This document shows, in pieces, positions 10,559 to 28,459 of a stretch of DNA of 28,542 nt. The stretch is from IMG/VR virus record IMGVR_UViG_3300024999_000312, positions 1 through 28,542 of that record. The stretch is one strand, 5' to 3'. Position 1 is the first letter of the stretch. The number at the start of each line of letters is the position of its first letter. The DNA comes from a virus. Below the pieces are notes generated by a model. That model saw only the letters and a program-made list of their open reading frames with translations, did no database searches and was not told where the DNA came from. A program made the position numbers and the translations under genes.

Positions 10559-12559
10559 TCAGCCGGCATTCTTCACCATGCCGCGCCAATCCATGGCCTT
10601 GGCCCCGGCGTCGATCCGGACTTTGTGCTCGACACCGTCGACATTCCAGCCGGTTTTCTGCTCAAGGAAAGGCTTCTGCACGCCGTCGAGGAAGAAGACC
10701 TTGACGGTCTTGCCCTTCGGTCCGGCGAGGTACCAGGCGGTGGTGGAGGCACCGTCCAAGCGGGCATCGTACACCCGGGTAAACCGCGGACCGGCGTAGA
10801 TATTGGTTCTTGTCGCCGACTTGAGATCTCCGGCAAACTGGGTCGAAGAGAAAAAAATCTCGGCCGCACCCTCTGCAGTTTTCGGCCCGATGAAAAATTG
10901 CGGGTTGATATTCAGCCGACGCTTGCCGGCGATATCTTTCTGCAGGCCCATCAGTTTGATACCCTCGGCCATGGTGACCTCGGATGGCACGCCAGCGGTG
11001 CCGAGGTTGGCGTGCGAGGCATGGAATAGGGCGATGCCGTCGCCCATCGCCGAGTTGGCGGTGAGCACCGCATAAACCACGTCGCCGACCTTGCGGGCCG
11101 CTGCTTCGCCGTGGGAATACGGGATGTCGGTGAGGGCGCCGATGTTGTCGTTGATGATCGCCTGGCGGGTGATTGCGAATAGCTTGCCGTAGGTAACGAC
11201 GGCATAGCTCTCGAAGCTCTCGGAGCGATCTTCGTATTCGTACTCGCCACCTTCCGGCACCTCGGTAAGGTCGTCGCCCTCGGATGCCCTCGCGGCCTTG
11301 TGGGTGAGGAAGTTGCTGACAGCACCGACTGCGCACCATTGTTCCCAGGATTCCTGCGCCGCTTCCCAACCCATCATCAGGCTGAGGTTGGCGGTTGCGC
11401 CGAGGATGACAGGCAGGTCGGAGCTGGTCAACGCCCGGCCGACCACGTCGAGCGGTCTACCCGAGTCGGAGAATCCGGCGCGAACCAGACACATACGGGA
11501 CAACTCGACCATCGAGCGCCCGGCCAACTCGTCATGTCCAGGCGCCGGTTTTTCCCGGGGGATGCCGGCGCGGAGCAGGAGGGCGTCCTGGCCAGCCGCG
11601 CGGAACTTATCGCGCTCATCGGCGCCGAGCATGACCGGCGATCGGTGGCCGTAGCCGGCCGGGGCCGGGTTTTTGGCGAGATGATCGAGGACCGCCTGGC
11701 GGGCTTCATCCACAGTTTTGTTGTCGCCGATAAGGCCAGCTGACAACTCACGGCAGCCGTACTTCTCGCACAGGCTGGAGATCTCGGTGGTGCGTGAGCG
11801 TTCGGCACGGACGGCATTTTCCGCCGCTTCGTCGGCTGCCCGCTTGATCTCGTCGGCGGTCGGGCCTGCAGCGCCGGCTACAGTGACCGGCTGCTGGTTC
11901 ATCTTCTCAAAAAAGGCATTCGCCTCGTCTTCCGTTGCATCCTTGCGCAGACCGTGCCGCTCAAGGAAGGCTCTCAATCTTTGATCCATGAGGTTTTCCT
12001 TATGTTGGGGCGCGGGCGCACCTTGGTCTGCCCTTGCCTTTGCCAGTTCATCCGCCCCGATGGGACAGACGCTTAATTCCTTCAGTTTCCACTTGGTGAC
12101 GACCTTGACCGGGCCGGTAAATTCCCGGCCGGCAACGTTCTGTTTCATGCCTTTTTCGATCCAGATCGACTCGATCACCCGGTAGCCGACCGAGAAGTCG
12201 GTGAGGTGACCCTCGCAGACTTTGGTATACGGGCCTTCGGCTTCGGCGACGGTGCTGAAGTGGGCGCGGCCGACCAGGCCGTTACCTTCGATAATCATGC
12301 CGCGGAACGAGCCGATGACCGACGCGGTCGAATACCGGCTATGGGTATCCAGCAGCGGCACCTGCCGATTGCCCGGCATTTCGAGGCCGGACATAAGGAG
12401 GATCTCTTCGATGTAGCCGCGTTCCCAGTCGTAGATGGTCGCCGGGTTTTCGGTGGTGGCGAGGACCTCGACCGACCGGTCTTCCTCGTTCAGGGAAGAA
12501 GGTTTGCCGCCCTGCATGGCGAGGGGCATGGCCCGGTAGGTGTCGTAATGTTTTTTCAT
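10559..12559 (-). CDS. Prohead protease / scaffold / major capsid fusion protein
   Basis: A 666-residue protein combining capsid maturation and shell functions. Residues 1-175 are a U35 (HK97-type) prohead protease: candidate catalytic His73 lies in LLDTHSR and Ser123 in DFSVGYR, 50 residues apart, and LKELSVCPIG follows. Residues about 195-300 are helical and charged, as expected of a scaffold (delta-like) region. Residues about 345-666 are the HK97-fold shell protein, most like Mu gpT-type capsids (SNFLTHKAAR, then YGKLFAITRQAIINDNIGA, then NINPQFFIGP). The ATG at 12557-12559 has AAGGAG upstream, overlapping the last codons of the portal gene. Such fusions are known in some phages; the protease would have to cut itself free. 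A second ribosome site inside the gene could yield scaffold-capsid without the protease. Confidence 0.9.
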   Translation of the reverse strand: MKKHYDTYRAMPLAMQGGKPSSLNEEDRSVEVLATTENPATIYDWERGYIEEILLMSGLEMPGNRQVPLLDTHSRYSTASVIGSFRGMIIEGNGLVGRAHFSTVAEAEGPYTKVCEGHLTDFSVGYRVIESIWIEKGMKQNVAGREFTGPVKVVTKWKLKELSVCPIGADELAKARADQGAPAPQHKENLMDQRLRAFLERHGLRKDATEDEANAFFEKMNQQPVTVAGAAGPTADEIKRAADEAAENAVRAERSRTTEISSLCEKYGCRELSAGLIGDNKTVDEARQAVLDHLAKNPAPAGYGHRSPVMLGADERDKFRAAGQDALLLRAGIPREKPAPGHDELAGRSMVELSRMCLVRAGFSDSGRPLDVVGRALTSSDLPVILGATANLSLMMGWEAAQESWEQWCAVGAVSNFLTHKAARASEGDDLTEVPEGGEYEYEDRSESFESYAVVTYGKLFAITRQAIINDNIGALTDIPYSHGEAAARKVGDVVYAVLTANSAMGDGIALFHASHANLGTAGVPSEVTMAEGIKLMGLQKDIAGKRRLNINPQFFIGPKTAEGAAEIFFSSTQFAGDLKSATRTNIYAGPRFTRVYDARLDGASTTAWYLAGPKGKTVKVFFLDGVQKPFLEQKTGWNVDGVEHKVRIDAGAKAMDWRGMVKNAG
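11987..12001 (-). promoter_or_regulatory. Candidate internal ribosome site and start within the protease-capsid gene
   Basis: At codon 191 of the fusion gene the coding strand reads AAGGAAAACCTC ATG, an AGGA seven bases before an in-frame ATG (11987-11989). Starting here would give a 476-residue scaffold-capsid protein beginning MDQRLRAFLERHGL. The point lies exactly at the boundary between the protease domain and the helical scaffold region. Lambda uses the same trick to make scaffold Nu3 from within the protease gene C. Confidence 0.5.
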
Positions 12560-15415: not shown

Positions 15416-16198
15416 TCAGTTTTTCACTTGCCTGGCAACAACCTCTTTGATGCTGTCCTTCCAGCGGATCATAGGATCATCCTTGAACCAGGTGTAAAGG
15501 TCCATAATCTGCTGATCGCTTTGCAGCTGCTCGATCTCAAAAGCCATATGCAGGAACTCAGGAGGAACCCGCAGGCGCACCTTGTTCATTTTGCCAATCC
15601 AGATGGTTTGAGAAACGAGCGGCCGCACCCACTCGACCAGGATCTCCGTCATCTGATACCCTTCGAGCATTGGCTCGATGGAAACAGAGGTGTCAAACCC
15701 TTCATTGAAAGCAAGTTCCAAACACCCCCGGCGCTCTTGCGGCGATGGTGCACACGGCTCCCACCGAGCAGACACGTCACGCTGAACCGTGCCCATCGTG
15801 AACCTGAAAAGGATTTGTTTCCGGTATGGTTCAAGATATTTTATAAGCCGCTCTATGCACTCCACCCGAGGCTTTGAGACGATCAGTAGCTGGTTGCCTT
15901 TATCGAGCATCAGTTTTGCCACCCGGATATAGGCATCGACATTGAAAGGCGTGATATCGTGAGTCGAAGGAAACATGATCACGCCGTCCCGGGCAGGATA
16001 AGATTTCATCTCGGCCCGCTTGGTCAGCCGCTCGTTCGTCCATTCCTCGCGCTTGCACCAGCCGCCATACATCTTCGCGGCCTTGTCTGCGGCATAGCAG
16101 TAGAGGCAGCCATTGGCGCAGCCGATCTGGATATTTTCGGTCACTTCTGCCCATTCTTTGGTGCCTGTGCCTTTTCGGTTTTTGTCGAAATTGGTCAT
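15416..16198 (-). CDS. DUF5131 (phage Gp37/Gp68 family) protein, radical-SAM-like
   Basis: A 260-residue protein. I start it at ATG 16196-16198 because AGGTGA lies just upstream; the longer frame reads through a separate small gene. Near the N terminus (residues 14-36) it has TKEWAEVTENIQIGCANGCL followed by YCYA, the conserved DUF5131 signature; C27, C31 and C34 form a CxxxCxxC motif as in radical SAM enzymes. Later segments such as GVIMFPSTHDITPFNVDAYI, LLIVSKPRVECIERL and SVSIEPMLEGYQ are the expected barrel strands. DUF5131 is widespread in phages and its substrate is unknown. It shares the accessory block with a PP-loop protein, which may hint at joint nucleic-acid or nucleotide modification (inference). 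Confidence 0.85.
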   Translation of the reverse strand: MTNFDKNRKGTGTKEWAEVTENIQIGCANGCLYCYAADKAAKMYGGWCKREEWTNERLTKRAEMKSYPARDGVIMFPSTHDITPFNVDAYIRVAKLMLDKGNQLLIVSKPRVECIERLIKYLEPYRKQILFRFTMGTVQRDVSARWEPCAPSPQERRGCLELAFNEGFDTSVSIEPMLEGYQMTEILVEWVRPLVSQTIWIGKMNKVRLRVPPEFLHMAFEIEQLQSDQQIMDLYTWFKDDPMIRWKDSIKEVVARQVKN

Positions 16199-16202
16199 TT
16201 CA

Positions 16203-16367
16203 TCACCTGAGTTTGATCCCCATCGCCGCAGCCATTTCTTCCATGCTCGACGCCTTTCTAAAGGCCGACTTTCTTCTGCCCTCAATCGCCCTCTTATCCT
16301 CACGTTCGATAAAAGCGGCCTTTCGCGCTTTGGCTTTGCTGCCTTGTAATTGTTTGCTTTTTCTCAT
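16203..16367 (-). CDS. 54-residue basic protein directly upstream of the DUF5131 gene
   Basis: An ATG at 16365-16367 with AAGGTG six bases upstream opens a 54-codon frame ending at TGA 16203-16205. The protein begins MRKSKQLQGSKAKARKAAFI, is rich in Lys, Arg and Ala, and ends in a helix containing SMEEMAAAMGIKLR. Its stop lies within the ribosome site of the DUF5131 gene, five bases before that ATG, a coupled arrangement. It may bind nucleic acid because of its charge, or act as a partner of the downstream enzyme; both are guesses. The reading frame and spacing make it a real gene in my view. Confidence 0.62.
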   Translation of the reverse strand: MRKSKQLQGSKAKARKAAFIEREDKRAIEGRRKSAFRKASSMEEMAAAMGIKLR

Positions 16368-17127: not shown

Positions 17128-17886
17128 TTATAATCCGCACTGGCACGGCGGATATTCAATATCTTCCATCCCGAAAAGAGCCTGCTGTTTCTCGTTAATC
17201 AACGAGGTAAGCGGCCTGTCTTTCCCGTATAGGTAGATAGGTTTCTTCCCTCGTTCTTCACGGCCTTTGTTTGTCGCTGTCTCAATACCCACAGCCTTAC
17301 ACCACAAGCCGTCATTGGCTCTTCTTAGGGCCTTCCATTGCCCCTTCCGCTGAAACGGGCAGAAGTAGCATCCGCTCTTCCGAGGAACCTTTAGCCCATG
17401 GTGCTTTATCAGATCAACGCACCCGGCCCGGTCGATATTATGCTCTATCAATAGGTATCTATTTTCCACGCCCTTGTCGGTTGCGATCTTCGCCCTTTTC
17501 GCTTCCCCAGCGTCTATCCCGATGTGCTGGAAACAAGGCTTTTCTATGTGTTTCATCAACACCTTGACCTTGAATTTATCAGTGCACCATCTCTTGATTC
17601 TGCTCGGCATCATGCCCTTAGCAACGCAGTAATCATAAAGCGAAGAAAACCCCTCAACCGCTGGCTTGAGGATCGTCACCGGCCTGCCAGATGCGATAAA
17701 ATATTCTGCGTATTCATAGGTATCGGGCCAATCTCCACCGTGATCGACAAACAGAGCCTCGAAGTCCATATCAAGGTCTTTCATCAGCAGGTAGAGAGCT
17801 ACCGAGTTAACACCGAATCCCATCGATAGGTAATTCTTCAAATTTTGCTCCATCGTGAAAACTGATATTACTTTCGAATTACGCAT
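17128..17886 (-). CDS. PAPS reductase-like PP-loop ATP-binding protein
   Basis: A 252-residue protein of the phosphoadenosine phosphosulfate reductase-like group found in phages. Residues 21-28 read SMGFGVNS, the place of the PP-loop (usually SGGxDS), so the Asp is replaced by Asn; I recall GVNS variants in this clade. It is followed by FVDHGGDWPDTYEYAEYF, a typical substrate-side segment, then RWCTDKFKVK (99-108), GIDAGEAKRAK (123-133) and the cysteine pair GCYFCPF (172-178). Real sulfate assimilation is unlikely for a phage; relatives are suspected in nucleotide or tRNA modification. I chose the ATG overlapping the upstream stop (17879-17886); a second ATG at 17853 is possible. It sits in the same block as the DUF5131 gene. 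Confidence 0.8.
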   Translation of the reverse strand: MRNSKVISVFTMEQNLKNYLSMGFGVNSVALYLLMKDLDMDFEALFVDHGGDWPDTYEYAEYFIASGRPVTILKPAVEGFSSLYDYCVAKGMMPSRIKRWCTDKFKVKVLMKHIEKPCFQHIGIDAGEAKRAKIATDKGVENRYLLIEHNIDRAGCVDLIKHHGLKVPRKSGCYFCPFQRKGQWKALRRANDGLWCKAVGIETATNKGREERGKKPIYLYGKDRPLTSLINEKQQALFGMEDIEYPPCQCGL

Positions 17887-18340
17887 ACTCCCGCAACCCA
17901 ATAATCCGGTACAGCTCGTCAAGCAGCTCGTCGCCCTTTTCGTACGCCGGAAAGTTCAACCCTTCCCGGTCACAAAAATCATGAATCTTCCGGCTTGCGG
18001 CGGCGATCGGTTCGAGCATGGCCATCTTCCTGGCAACGCCATCGTCGCGATGCAGCAGATCGGCGTTGATCCGCTCGCACATGCAGGCCAGGGCCACGGC
18101 GGAATATCCACGGTCAGGATGGCTTTCGACGAACCGCTGGAACTGCTCCCGGCGATCCTTCACCCAATATCTGTTACTCATCCCCGGCCATTCGATGATT
18201 GCTTTCTGGCAGGCGGCGAAGCCTGCGGCGATGGCCGCCTTGATGTCGACCCGGGCGAAGGCGTTCGTCTGCCGCAGGGTTTCAAGGCAGCCTGCCTCGG
18301 TGGCGAGTAGGACGAGGGTTTGGTCGGTTTCTGCGCTCAT
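17879..18340 (-). CDS. Helical phage protein, unknown function
   Basis: A 153-residue protein predicted mostly helical. The ATG at 18338-18340 overlaps the upstream stop (TGATG) and has AGGGG seven bases upstream; a GTG one codon before is less likely. Segments of note are FARVDIKAAIAAGFAACQKA, WVKDRREQFQRFVESHPDRG and KGDELLDELYRIIG. Cysteines are scattered without a metal motif. The gene is translationally linked on both sides, so it acts with or travels with its neighbours. I do not recognise the family. Confidence 0.62.
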   Translation of the reverse strand: MSAETDQTLVLLATEAGCLETLRQTNAFARVDIKAAIAAGFAACQKAIIEWPGMSNRYWVKDRREQFQRFVESHPDRGYSAVALACMCERINADLLHRDDGVARKMAMLEPIAAASRKIHDFCDREGLNFPAYEKGDELLDELYRIIGLREYA

Positions 18341-24201: not shown

Positions 24202-25113
24202 TCAAGCAGCCTTCAGGGCGTGCAGCTGATCGGCGGTGACACCCTGCACCGTCCCCTTGATAACGCCCAGGGCGATATCAAGGAGGAGATCGGCTTTCGA
24301 TGGGTCAGAACTGCACAAGACGGCGGGGACCGGTTTTATCATTTCGGACCAGCTCGGCCAGCCGTAGGATTTTTCGATTTCCAGTGCATTGACTTTCTCC
24401 CGAAGATGGCTGACTTCATTCTGAATCCCTTCAATTTCAAGAACTGCAGCTGAGACAGCTATATCAACCGGGGCCAAGTGATCAACTTTCAGGGTTTCGA
24501 AAACTTTATTCTGGAATGAGATAAGTGCGCCGCCCAAATTCGTGAGCCGCTCGATTTCAATCTGGTCCATCTTCTTTTCCAGTCTCAGCTTTTCGATTTG
24601 TTCCCGGATGCTCCGGACATCAGCCAAGGCCAGCTTCAGCTGCTCGATCTCGTTTTGGGCTGCCTGCAGATCGGCGGCTGTCGAGTCGGCAGAGGTTGCT
24701 GCTGTGGCCTCGAAACCGAAATGTTCCGCCAACCAAACCGCATCCTTGGTTTCCAATAGTGCCTTGGCCAGCAATCCGGGGGAGACATTAGCCGCCCGCC
24801 ATACATGCTCGCATGTCGGGCAACAGTTTTTCCCGCGCACCTTCCGAACCCTCTTTTTCAAAACGCACAAGTCGCATTTGCCGTCAACTATCGCTACCAT
24901 CTCTTTCACCTCGCTTTCTTGAATGTTTTCCGACTTCACCATTGCCTGGGGATGGCCCGGGCGCACGCTGCAGTAATTGAGGACAATACCGGTCTTCATC
25001 TCGATAGTTTTCCGGAAGGCGGCGCAGTCGTTGCGAAAGACTTCATCCGTGCAATCATCCGTATTCCGTCGTGTTATCGGGCATCGCTTACGCCCCGGTA
25101 TTGTTGTTTCCAT
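24202..25113 (-). CDS. Zinc-ribbon and coiled-coil protein in the replication block
   Basis: A 303-residue protein from ATG 25111-25113, which shares a base with the primase stop (TGATG); AAGGGG is upstream. Residues 1-50 hold four cysteines (CPITRR, DDC, NDC, NYC), perhaps a small metal site. Residues about 78-108 are a clear zinc ribbon with CDLC and CPTC. A long coiled coil follows (about 145-260, with LQAAQNEIEQLKLALADVRS and IREQIEKLRLEKKMDQIEIE). The C terminus ends PSKADLLLDIALGVIKGTVQ. An internal ATG at codon 72 with GAGGTG six bases upstream could start a shorter form (MVAIVDGKCDLC). Position after the primase suggests a role in replication or its control, but I do not recognise the family. 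Confidence 0.6.
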   Translation of the reverse strand: METTIPGRKRCPITRRNTDDCTDEVFRNDCAAFRKTIEMKTGIVLNYCSVRPGHPQAMVKSENIQESEVKEMVAIVDGKCDLCVLKKRVRKVRGKNCCPTCEHVWRAANVSPGLLAKALLETKDAVWLAEHFGFEATAATSADSTAADLQAAQNEIEQLKLALADVRSIREQIEKLRLEKKMDQIEIERLTNLGGALISFQNKVFETLKVDHLAPVDIAVSAAVLEIEGIQNEVSHLREKVNALEIEKSYGWPSWSEMIKPVPAVLCSSDPSKADLLLDIALGVIKGTVQGVTADQLHALKAA

Positions 25114-26597
25114 CACTGCCCCTTGTTTTTACATTGCGGACGGAGTCCGCCATTTAATCGACCACATATGCCTGCCGCGCTCGGCCGGCCTTGACGATCC
25201 GGCCGAGAACGCCGACCGGCCTTGACGATCCGGCCGAGAACGCCGACCGGCTGGCAGGCGATGCAGAAATATCCGCCATTCACCCCGGCGAGGAACGTGT
25301 CGCCGAAGCAGACACAACACCAGCGCAGGGCAGGGATGACTTCCGGCAGCGGTACAGTATCGTATGCCGGCTGCAGCTCCGCCGCCGTGGCCCCAGCGCT
25401 CGCCGCATTCTCTTGTTTTCCGGTAGAGATATCTTTTCCCCCATCCCCCGACGTGAAACTCACAGGCGATAAGGGCAAGTCATGAACCTGGGTGGAAGCG
25501 GGGCGTGAGACCTGCGGCAGCAGTCCTGCTTCGACCCAGGCGCGGAGAGATCCGCCCAACTCGGCGAAGTGGCCTGGGTCTTTGCCCTGCGGTACCGGCC
25601 AGAAGCGGGCTTGGCGGAAGGCCTTCTGCCACCGATCGATCGCCGCTGGTCCGGCGCCTTGTTTGCCGTCCTTGCCTTGGTCGGCATCGAGGGCAAGGAG
25701 GATCACCGGCAGGGCCAACAGCTCGGCGCGCACCGCGGCGGGGAGTCCGGATGAAACCGTACCGAGAGCAATGACCAGGACCTGGTCGTGAGCGGCTGCC
25801 GTGGCGATTGCATCAAGTTCCGCCTCGACGATCACCGCGCCGCGGGGGGCGCCGGATGGGCGGAGGATAAGCGGCTCGTTGCCGGATCCTTCCAGCCATA
25901 CGTATTTCAGGTCCGGCAGAAAATTTGCCCTGGCCTCGTCGGTGCGGCGGACCCGCAGCCGGTGGATCCGGTTGTCGTCGTAGATCGAGATCAAGAGACC
26001 GCCGGGGATCCAGAGATCTGTTTTGCCGGCGCGCGGTTGCAGACCGATGGTATCCCGCTTGACCTTGTGGTCGTGATCGAGCCAGCCGAGGCCGAAGCGG
26101 TCGGCGGTCTCGCTCGATATTCCGCGCTTGGCCAACCAGGACAAGGCCTCGTTGTTCGCCTGCAGGCGTGGCATGGCCTTCTCGGTCAATAGCTCAGCCC
26201 ATTCGCGCCAGAGCACCGCCGGAGATTTGACGACGGTGAGTGGGAGGTCTTTATCCTGCTTGCCAGCATGCGGCTCGATGACCCGCGGCTGCCGAGCGAT
26301 CCGCTTGCCGGAGCCGTCGCCGAGGCGGCAGGTGCCCTTGACCTGGCAGCCGTCGAAGCGGCAGGGGACTCCGGCGGCCTCGTGGGCCTCGGGGCAGGTC
26401 TTGCCGTCAATCTCCCGTAACCAGGTGATGAGATCGCCCTTCCAGCCGCAGCCGAAGCAGCGGAAACCGCCGTCGGTGTACATCGAGAACTTTTCCGACC
26501 TGGAGGAACCACCACACTTCTTACAGGGACCGGTGAACCTGCCGCCGGATTTTCTGAGATTGTGCTTGGAGGCTATGTCGATGATAAGGTTCAACAT
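25113..26597 (-). CDS. DNA primase with CHC2-type zinc finger and Toprim domain
   Basis: A 494-residue primase. Residues 25-50 give the zinc finger (CKKC and CFGC, with FSMYTDGGFRCFGCGWKGD). A second four-Cys group lies at 68, 79, 84 and 90, which is unusual. The Toprim part has AVIVEAELDAIATA (about 254-266) and LALDADQGKDG (301-311), with the acidic residues that hold metal. A third CxxC pair group (CCVC, CIAC) lies near residue 430-448. From residue about 462 the protein is out of its older frame because of a 31-bp tandem duplication, so the last 33 residues (ARG/GLY-rich) are probably not native; without it the protein would end after 470 residues. The start codon lies in one ATGAGTAAA repeat. 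It would act with the D5-type helicase to start replication. Confidence 0.88.
   Translation of the reverse strand: MLNLIIDIASKHNLRKSGGRFTGPCKKCGGSSRSEKFSMYTDGGFRCFGCGWKGDLITWLREIDGKTCPEAHEAAGVPCRFDGCQVKGTCRLGDGSGKRIARQPRVIEPHAGKQDKDLPLTVVKSPAVLWREWAELLTEKAMPRLQANNEALSWLAKRGISSETADRFGLGWLDHDHKVKRDTIGLQPRAGKTDLWIPGGLLISIYDDNRIHRLRVRRTDEARANFLPDLKYVWLEGSGNEPLILRPSGAPRGAVIVEAELDAIATAAAHDQVLVIALGTVSSGLPAAVRAELLALPVILLALDADQGKDGKQGAGPAAIDRWQKAFRQARFWPVPQGKDPGHFAELGGSLRAWVEAGLLPQVSRPASTQVHDLPLSPVSFTSGDGGKDISTGKQENAASAGATAAELQPAYDTVPLPEVIPALRWCCVCFGDTFLAGVNGGYFCIACQPVGVLGRIVKAGRRSRPDRQGRPSAAGICGRLNGGLRPQCKNKGQ
25185..25246 (-). repeat. Perfect 31-bp tandem duplication in the primase gene
   Basis: Two identical 31-base units occupy 25185-25215 and 25216-25246; on the plus strand each starts CCGGCCTTGACGATCC and ends GAACGCCGA. 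Because 31 is not a multiple of three, the second unit moves the frame. With one unit the coding strand would read GCC GGC CGA GCG CGG CAG GCA TAT GTG GTC GAT TAA, an early stop at 25154-25156. With two units the frame runs on to 25113. Confidence 0.92.
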
Positions 26598-26668
26598 GAG
26601 TAAAATTTTTCCTAATTGGTGGTCATTAACTTTCTAATATTTTTAACTAATTGTTTTTATTGCTTATT

Positions 26669-26696
26669 ATTATATAATTATGAGTAAATGAGTAAA
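26669..26696 (-). promoter_or_regulatory. Candidate sigma-70-like promoter of the primase gene
   Basis: On the minus strand TTTACT (26691-26696, four of six match to -35) and TATAAT (26669-26674, perfect -10) are 16 bases apart. The -35 box is inside the repeat at 26680-26696, so a protein bound to that repeat would compete with polymerase. Transcription would start about 65 bases before the primase ATG. Confidence 0.5.
26680..26696. repeat. 17-bp repeat copy 1 (direct)
   Basis: ATGAGTAAATGAGTAAA, identical to the copy at 26841-26857. It overlaps the -35 box of the candidate primase promoter. Confidence 0.88.
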
Positions 26697-26761
26697 ATGT
26701 TATACGCGTACGTGAGAGAGTTTTGTTGCGCTGTTTTTCCTTCGCGTGTACGTGCGGGAAA

Positions 26762-26778
26762 TTTACTCATTTGCTCAT
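26762..26778. repeat. 17-bp repeat copy 2 (inverted, one change)
   Basis: TTTACTCATTTGCTCAT, the reverse complement of the repeat with one substitution (G for A on one strand). It lies midway between the two direct copies. Confidence 0.82.
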
Positions 26779-26840
26779 AAATTTCTGAAATGTCTTTTAT
26801 GTTCGAGGTGTTGCCTTTATTAGTTGGCTGAGTGTTGCAT

Positions 26841-26857
26841 ATGAGTAAATGAGTAAA
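26841..26857. repeat. 17-bp repeat copy 3 (direct)
   Basis: ATGAGTAAATGAGTAAA, identical to copy 1, located four bases past the stop codon of the helicase gene. Confidence 0.88.
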
Positions 26858-26860
26858 CAT

Positions 26861-28459
26861 CTATTCTCCCCTCATAGTTTCTTTGACTGATTCCTTCACC
26901 GTCATTTTATAGACCCAGGTTTTCCCCCCTGACGGTTCTACGCGGAAGCCCTTGTCGCGCAGCTGCTTGTTTATCGTTTTCATGTGGGGGACGTGCTTGT
27001 CCGACGAGTCGGAATTTTCCGACCACCAAAATTTAAAGACATCGTACATCACCGTGCAGGCCGTATTGATCTCTGGTCTGTCAGGCCAGGTGTCCATGCA
27101 ATCTTCGATGAAACGTCCGACATAATCCTCTTCACTGGCCAGTTTCAGCACGGCATCGAGCACCTGTTGTGGCGGCTTCAAGCCGATGTTCTGCCAATCG
27201 AGACAGCCTTCGACCTTCCATCTGAGGATTCCTTGGCGATAGGCCGACAGCTTTTCGTAGAGTTTCGGATCTTTCTTGCGGAACTTGTCGGCCTGGACCG
27301 GGAATTTTCGCTTGTATTCATCCGGATCGTCGACGTACATGAATGGGAATTCGATGATCAGCAGCCTCTCGGCCAAGGAGAATTCCCGAGTAAGACCGGT
27401 CGGGAAATTGTTGGTCTGCAGAAAAACGTTGTGTGTTGGGTCGAATGTGATCTCGGAAGAGAAGTTGGGGCGGCAGGTTATTTTGTTTTGGCCGGTGAGG
27501 GCCTTTACCGCGGCGCCGTCGATCTTCTGCTTGGGGTTGGTCTCTGCCGCCATGATCATCCGCTTGCCGAGTAATGAATACTTGTGTTCGCTTGCGGCAT
27601 TGGCGGACGGCTCGTTGCGCTGCTCAAGAATCATCGCCCGGCTGATCTCGTGGTAATATGGGCCAAACATATCTCCGATCAGGTTGAACAGCACTCCCTT
27701 GCCGTTCCGCCCTGGGCCGATGAACACCCATATATATTGCTCGAAGGAAAAACCGGTGAGAGCGCAACCGAATGACCTCTTTAAAAATTGCTCCATCTCG
27801 ACCGAGTCGGAAATCTCTTGTACAAAATCGACAAACGGCTGGTACTCAGCTCTCGGATCGTATGCGACTGACAGAGCTTTAGTCATCCGGTCTGACGGGT
27901 TGCCGCGGGTTAGCGCTCCGGTTTTGAGATCTATAACGCCGTTCTGGACCGGCAAAAGCCATGGCTTTTTATTAAATTCCTCTTCCCTGCAGGCCATCGC
28001 GGCACGATCCACGATGGCAGCCATTGACAAGGTTTTTTTCATTCCCTCTTCAGTCCTGAGCTTGTCTACCCGAGATAGGTATTTGTCGCGCAACGCAACC
28101 TTCCACCCTTGTTTCTCATCTTTTTTCTCGATGGCGTTTTGCTCGATCTCATCGGTCAACTCCATCGCCCGCTTGGCATATTCTCTGGCGCACTCCTCAA
28201 CTGCGTTGAGCGACTCCCGGAAGACGTCCAACTCCCACACATTGTCACGCCAGGCGTACCATTCTGGCTCTTTATTCTGCCGGGTTACATTGAGCAAAAA
28301 CCGGTCTTTAAAGAGAGTTGCCGCCAGACATCCGTCACCGCGGCTGTTGCCGTCGAGGCAGGTTTTGACAAACAGAGGATCGAGCGGCTCGCGCTCCTTG
28401 TCCTGCAGCAACGCCGCCGCCCGCTCCTCCACCTGCCGTGCTATCTCTTGCTCGTTCAT
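26861..28459 (-). CDS. D5-type SF3 replicative helicase
   Basis: A 532-residue protein of the phage/plasmid D5 helicase family (SF3, AAA+). The D5 N-terminal domain precedes the ATPase, with LLPVQNGVIDLKTGALTRGN near residue 168-186. Walker A is GPGRNGKG at 248-255, the Walker B-like strand is LLGKRMIMAAE (about 297-306), and motif C is the segment VFLQTNNFP with Asn350. LAERLLIIEFPF contains the likely arginine finger. The C terminus has a winged-helix-like part (TINKQLRDKGFRVEP). No archaeal-eukaryotic primase domain is visible at the N terminus, so priming is probably provided by the next gene. The ATG at 28457-28459 follows three bases after a possible upstream stop; the ribosome site is weak. 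Confidence 0.92.
   Translation of the reverse strand: MNEQEIARQVEERAAALLQDKEREPLDPLFVKTCLDGNSRGDGCLAATLFKDRFLLNVTRQNKEPEWYAWRDNVWELDVFRESLNAVEECAREYAKRAMELTDEIEQNAIEKKDEKQGWKVALRDKYLSRVDKLRTEEGMKKTLSMAAIVDRAAMACREEEFNKKPWLLPVQNGVIDLKTGALTRGNPSDRMTKALSVAYDPRAEYQPFVDFVQEISDSVEMEQFLKRSFGCALTGFSFEQYIWVFIGPGRNGKGVLFNLIGDMFGPYYHEISRAMILEQRNEPSANAASEHKYSLLGKRMIMAAETNPKQKIDGAAVKALTGQNKITCRPNFSSEITFDPTHNVFLQTNNFPTGLTREFSLAERLLIIEFPFMYVDDPDEYKRKFPVQADKFRKKDPKLYEKLSAYRQGILRWKVEGCLDWQNIGLKPPQQVLDAVLKLASEEDYVGRFIEDCMDTWPDRPEINTACTVMYDVFKFWWSENSDSSDKHVPHMKTINKQLRDKGFRVEPSGGKTWVYKMTVKESVKETMRGE

Follow-up and report, generated by a model that had tools for sequence, protein, structure and literature searches.

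The closest described systems are replication origins located directly behind a helicase gene. In SaPI and PICI elements, as predicted for the locus analyzed here, the origin lies directly downstream of the initiator helicase gene: the C-terminal domains of SaPI Rep and of the D5-type Cch2 bind iterons that follow closely downstream of the genes encoding these two proteins (PMC7581432), and in Gram-negative PICIs two iteron sets flank an A/T-rich region, with the rep-ori segment replicating a plasmid (PMC6092414). A 302-bp non-coding element of the Streptococcus thermophilus phage Sfi21 (PER; NC_000872 34487-34784), situated directly 3' of a D5-type primase/helicase gene, has been described as an independent replication origin (PMC6356513). 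The origin of the Sulfolobus plasmid pRN1 is likewise found directly 3' of an SF3 helicase/primase gene, and its inverted arms are divergent in sequence and conserved in structure (PMC4234260).

A gap in the same position was present in the window, that is the whole stretch of 28,542 nucleotides analyzed (IMG/VR record IMGVR_UViG_3300024999_000312). It occupies 263 bp (26598-26860) between the helicase and primase genes, beginning at the helicase stop codon and thus directly downstream of a D5-type gene, and its GC content is 31% versus about 47-64% in 1-kb windows, which agrees with its description as AT-rich in an earlier note made from the sequence alone. The features of the locus are as follows:

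26861-28459, minus strand: D5-family SF3/AAA+ helicase, 532 aa, proposed initiator (Pfam D5_N 1.5e-18; PHROG DNA primase/helicase families)
26841-26857, minus strand: iteron pair 1, TTTACTCATTTACTCAT, direct orientation, next to the helicase stop codon on its 3' side
26762-26778, plus strand: iteron pair 2, TTTACTCATTTGCTCAT, inverted orientation
26743-26756, no strand assigned: alternating pyrimidine-purine tract 1, CGCACGTACACGCG on the minus strand, with an alternation of 0.81-1.00 per step at the corresponding position of 27 aligned loci
26715-26742, no strand assigned: central A/T-richer stretch between the tracts, with the dyad center near 26729
26701-26714, no strand assigned: alternating pyrimidine-purine tract 2, CACGTACGCGTATA on the minus strand, mirroring tract 1
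26680-26696, minus strand: iteron pair 3, TTTACTCATTTACTCAT, direct orientation
26639-26678, no strand assigned: A/T-rich stretch (90% A+T over 40 bp after pair 3), candidate melting region, including a promoter-like -10 TATAAT
26596-26604, minus strand: single iteron, TTTACTCAT, overlapping the primase ATG (26595-26597)
25113-26597, minus strand: CHC2 zinc-ribbon/Toprim (DnaG-like) primase (PHROG_47 DNA primase 1.3e-15; Pfam Zn_ribbon_DnaG 9.3e-05)

Near its end the primase gene carries a perfect 31-bp tandem duplication in 2.2 copies (25185-25251), while the last primase residues of the relatives continue in another frame (window about 25156-25239); the duplication shifts the frame, so that the C-terminus of the window primase is replaced, either in reality or through an assembly error.

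All the repeats that the earlier note had listed, i.e., two perfect 17-bp copies, an inverted near-copy and a half-site at the primase start, were located in the gap. The exact 17-mers (ATGAGTAAATGAGTAAA on the plus strand) occupy 26680-26696 and 26841-26857, and the inverted copy at 26762-26778 has one mismatch. The copies consist of tandem 8-mers, as the note had stated, forming three pairs in direct, inverted and direct orientation at distances of 81 and 80 bp. Its judgment that such matches are far beyond chance was borne out as well: three matches to the 17-mer with up to 3 mismatches were found versus 0.02 expected, and six copies of the nonamer ATGAGTAAA versus 0.09 expected, all six inside the gap. 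A 16-mer search of the whole 28.5-kb record gave no copy beyond those in the gap, and within the window the repeat pairs and the single unit were confined to it. The left arm and both inner pairs of the array are present, the right outer arm is degenerate and, given this degeneration, the dyad (mirror) score of the window itself was not above the null. GC skew across the 28.5-kb record showed no clear switch at the gap.

Searches with the D5 protein, the primase protein and the motif turned up relatives on viral contigs and in MAGs from Desulfobulbaceae, Desulfocapsa and other Desulfobacterales; a scan of 258 genomes from that class then yielded 26. The phage is a prophage type of Desulfobulbaceae and their relatives. 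Among its other genes, a phosphoadenosine phosphosulfate reductase-like gene (17128-17922; PHROG_424, 1.6e-32), carried here by a prophage of sulfur-cycle bacteria, is a possible auxiliary metabolic gene. An ORF at 15416-16303, between this gene and the portal gene, had a weak radical SAM match (Pfam 3.8e-4) and a match to an uncharacterized PHROG (4.3e-13), and a single ORF at 10559-12559 combined a prohead-protease-like N-terminus (Peptidase_S78 1.7e-3, residues 63-176) with a capsid C-terminus (Phage_capsid_4 3.2e-44, residues 376-664).

In the close family, defined by D5 proteins 49-72% identical and represented by 23 gaps that include some copies of one element, every gap was iteron-rich (23/23), with 5-11 copies of one hexamer each. 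Relatives that keep both genes but lack any repeat in the gap, which the earlier note had named as evidence against its proposal, were absent (0 of 23 close-family gaps). The gap length was 256-302 bp in 22 of the 23; in the exception, L049, an extra ORF with CxxC-type motifs (L049:1753-2637) separates the array from the primase gene, while the array is still beside D5. In L070 and L071 another gene directly follows the array. When the commonest word of each gap was determined without a preset motif, ACTCAT or its neighbors prevailed in most close-family gaps, AGTCCT in L047, L053, L039, L040 and L041, AGTCAT in L049 and TGCATG in L056/L042, and the more distant homologs had ATCCTG/GTCCTG, C[AG]TCAT, CTCCCA or CCTCCC. 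The word thus differed at all copies together, while the place and the layout stayed constant. Gap DNA contained 87 tandem pairs in 12 kb versus only two in the 269 kb that surround the gaps in these loci, and an iteron in forward orientation was again present at the primase start or close to it in L050, L051, L052, L054, L055, L037 and L038. Roughly nine D5 homologs, all among the most distant, showed no clear hexamer array when counted automatically. The exact 17-mer had 23 matches in IMG/VR, six of them on contigs beside D5 relatives (L006, L009, L015/L055, L017, L025 and L026); the other 17 had no D5 match, with several tandem TTTACTCA runs among them. The longer (TTTACTCA)n runs at L014:3089-3152 and L012:12153-12224, on contigs without a detected D5 relative, are possibly other iteron systems or simple repeats.

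The order of elements was common to the distant homologs: an inverted pair, an alternating CGCGTACG-like tract, an A/T core, a mirrored tract, a direct pair and an A/T stretch, often with mirrored outer arms. The fullest arrays (L047, L049, L056, L072 and L087) contained four direct, two inverted, two direct and four inverted iterons around one mirror center, with spacings of about 8, 11 and 11 in the first four and 11, 11 and 8 in the last four. Over 30 loci there were 128 mirrored iteron pairs versus 87.5 ± 2.7 with randomly placed blocks. Each inner pair is flanked on its inner side by an alternating pyrimidine-purine tract, for example CGCGCGTACG; in the 27 loci aligned on the inverted pair, the high per-step alternation given above extended over steps 10-20, versus about 0.4 beyond, and the longest G/C-bearing alternating run had a mean of 14.2 versus 5.2 ± 0.9 in shuffles. 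The 40 bp after the second inner pair were on average 79% A+T versus 62% for the gaps, being higher in 26 of 27 loci.

The changes of the iteron word were accompanied by changes in the helicase itself. Residue 509 of D5 was K or R in 12/12 non-ACT versus 0/15 ACT loci (p 5.8e-8), the best of all D5 columns, followed by residue 503 of the same C-terminal domain (1.8e-4); the best primase column against iteron class reached 2.1e-4, and after removal of near-duplicates residue 509 gave 8.7e-7 versus 6.4e-4 for the next column. These column p-values ignore kinship, so that the meaningful result is the rank among columns sharing one tree; the residue had been spotted by eye before the column scan, and the related sequences are not independent. 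In partial Mantel tests that controlled for the rest of D5, the distance between winged-helix domains followed the iteron distance (r 0.40, p 5e-4); for the helicase core the relation to iteron distance was not significant. In the tree of the D5 core, from which the C-terminus had been excluded, the iteron classes switched inside supported clades, with TGCATG (L056) nested in an ACTCAT clade (100/99) and AGTCCT (L047) sister to ACTCAT (L048) (94/86); the tree implies few independent switches, of which L047/L048 and L056 are the clearest. The whole-length AlphaFold model of D5 was poor in the AAA+ part (pLDDT 23-34, residues 231-370) and therefore only the C-terminal domain (about residues 440-532) was used, which was modeled confidently as a winged helix (pLDDT 82). 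Its best PDB match in Foldseek was the RFX winged-helix DNA-binding domain (probability 1.00, albeit with a weak E-value of 0.011), followed by AsfvPrimPol, also with a weak E-value. Residue 509 sits in the first wing strand of this model, and in RFX1 the major groove is known to be read by the wing instead of the helix (PMC4333399). The C-terminal winged helix of D5 is accordingly proposed, on the strength of covariation and a predicted fold, as the putative reader of the iterons.

Because 23 of 23 gaps carry an array, its letters change together, residue 509 covaries with them and the geometry matches that of the Sfi21 origin, the gap is read as the probable replication origin of this phage, bound by its D5 helicase, with a probability of roughly 0.86 as judged from sequence comparison. 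The origin or iteron function suggested in the earlier note is thereby strongly supported, and we infer that helicase binding, double-ring loading, melting and replication take place at the gap. In the proposed sequence of events, the C-terminal winged helix of D5 would dock on the 8-bp iterons, and the wing near residue 509 would read their first positions. Two helicase rings, one to each side of the dyad center, would be loaded by the pairs of opposite orientation; strand opening would be helped by the CGCGTACG-like alternating tracts and by the A/T stretches; and the opened DNA would be primed by the DnaG-like enzyme that the next gene encodes. More tentatively, and with somewhat less than an even chance of being right, the two mirrored 8-20-bp alternating tracts, whose letters vary while the alternation is kept, might form a torsion-sensitive gate (Z-DNA-prone or easily unwound) for double-ring loading, in an array whose word has been rewritten repeatedly with residue 509, neutral with ACT words and K/R with all others, as the chief switch of specificity. 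A predicted origin is thereby assigned to a group of Desulfobulbaceae prophages that has received little study, and about 30 natural variants of a single design become available, with fixed geometry and changing iteron letters. The putative code between initiator winged helix and iteron is testable and is relevant to the question of how mobile elements retain or change the specificity of their origins, and the conserved alternating tracts offer a concrete element for how D5/SF3 helicases open DNA.

Control of the primase, which the earlier note had considered equally possible, did not keep that standing. The array would then be an operator at which a phage regulator or D5 itself controls the promoter-like TTTACT-16-TATAAT (minus strand, 26696-26669) without any replication start. 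One copy does overlap the -35 box, as the note had claimed, this copy being iteron pair 3, and a half-site covers the primase start codon. However, the promoter-like match was conserved at 10/12 only in the window, L036 and L052, dropping to 7-9/12 elsewhere while the iterons and the A/T stretch persisted; in L049 the array stays beside D5 despite the ORF in front of the primase gene; and it is the helicase, rather than the primase, that covaries with the iterons. Moreover, 8-12 mirrored iterons make a larger array than usual operators, and the layout agrees with the annotated Sfi21 origin. A phage repressor operator would have a conserved promoter under the sites and further copies; the former was not found among the loci compared, and of the latter there were none in the window and only the two tandem pairs outside the gaps of the relatives' loci mentioned above. 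A pure operator is thus unlikely, albeit autoregulation of the primase may occur as a side effect of the array. Even less probable is a cis-acting accessory element resembling crr of phage P4, bound by D5 and needed for replication, with the strands opening elsewhere: P4 crr is located 3' of the alpha gene and has the same type I iterons, with the P4 ori elsewhere, but the 28.5-kb window, which may be an incomplete record, contained no second iteron cluster, the region 3' of the helicase acts as origin in Sfi21 and PICIs, and the A/T stretches fall inside the array.

The remaining two explanations have hardly any probability. Inverted arms of 17-19 nt, perfect or near-perfect, and an RNA folding z of -2.0 would suit a structured RNA in the helicase-primase transcript, an attenuator or riboregulator in which arms 1/2 or 2/3 form alternative hairpins. 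Yet the gap had no match to Rfam families, an RNA helix needs neither identical direct copies nor isolated units, all iteron copies of a gap change their letters together, in covariation with the D5 winged helix, and the paired alternating purine-pyrimidine tracts would seem to resemble a DNA-type constraint. Equally, the repeats might be codons recurring by chance in a small gene, namely an ORF of 60 aa (26678-26860) whose ATG immediately follows the helicase stop, with a GGGGAG-like site upstream. This candidate was rejected: its frame is not kept in the relatives, which have unrelated frames of 4-71 aa with only L036 sharing a part, and it had neither Pfam nor PHROG matches, so that it is probably not a gene.

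As a predicted origin, the gap was closest in geometry to the Sfi21 element. In the latter, the inverted pair occupies 93/101 and the direct pair 177/185 (84 bp apart), compared to 83/91 and 168/176 (85 bp) in the window; the 8-bp unit spacing and the A/T-rich core are common to both. In contrast, the Sfi21 iteron is AGTAAC/GTTACT, its core is a long AT alternation instead of two CG-rich alternating tracts, and no DnaG-like primase gene directly follows; in profile comparison the C-terminal domain matched Sfi21 orf382 weakly. The same inverted and direct pairs occur in phi105 with a 9-bp spacing, while PSA has single inverted and direct units. Satellite phage P4 resembles the window in that its 8-bp iterons form pairs at distances of 9-10 bp and point in both directions, and in the position of crr 3' of the D5-like alpha gene, but it differs in having separate ori and crr and a primase-fused alpha, whereas the window record (28.5 kb, maybe incomplete) has one cluster; hhalign, applied to profiles of the C-terminal domains here and in P4 alpha, found no match (probability 0.35%). 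The pRN1 origin differs in being a single stem-loop of about 100 bp without an iteron array. SaPIs and PICIs differ in being satellites or cassettes, often with an AEP-type primase, and in their iteron sequences, and the passages compared (PMC6092414, PMC7581432) do not name mirrored 4+2+2+4 arrays or paired alternating tracts. In the portions of the origin literature compared, the paired alternating tracts, the near-perfect mirrored arms and the set-wise rewriting of the word with one wing residue were likewise unnamed. Nevertheless, the gap lies 3' of a D5-type gene, has repeats in two orientations and an A/T-rich region, and the helicase has a C-terminus with a predicted winged-helix fold, as in the SaPI/PICI/Sfi21 kind. 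By layout, the predicted origin therefore belongs to the SaPI/PICI/Sfi21/Cch2 kind, with the mirrored array and the paired alternating purine-pyrimidine tracts as its variant features.
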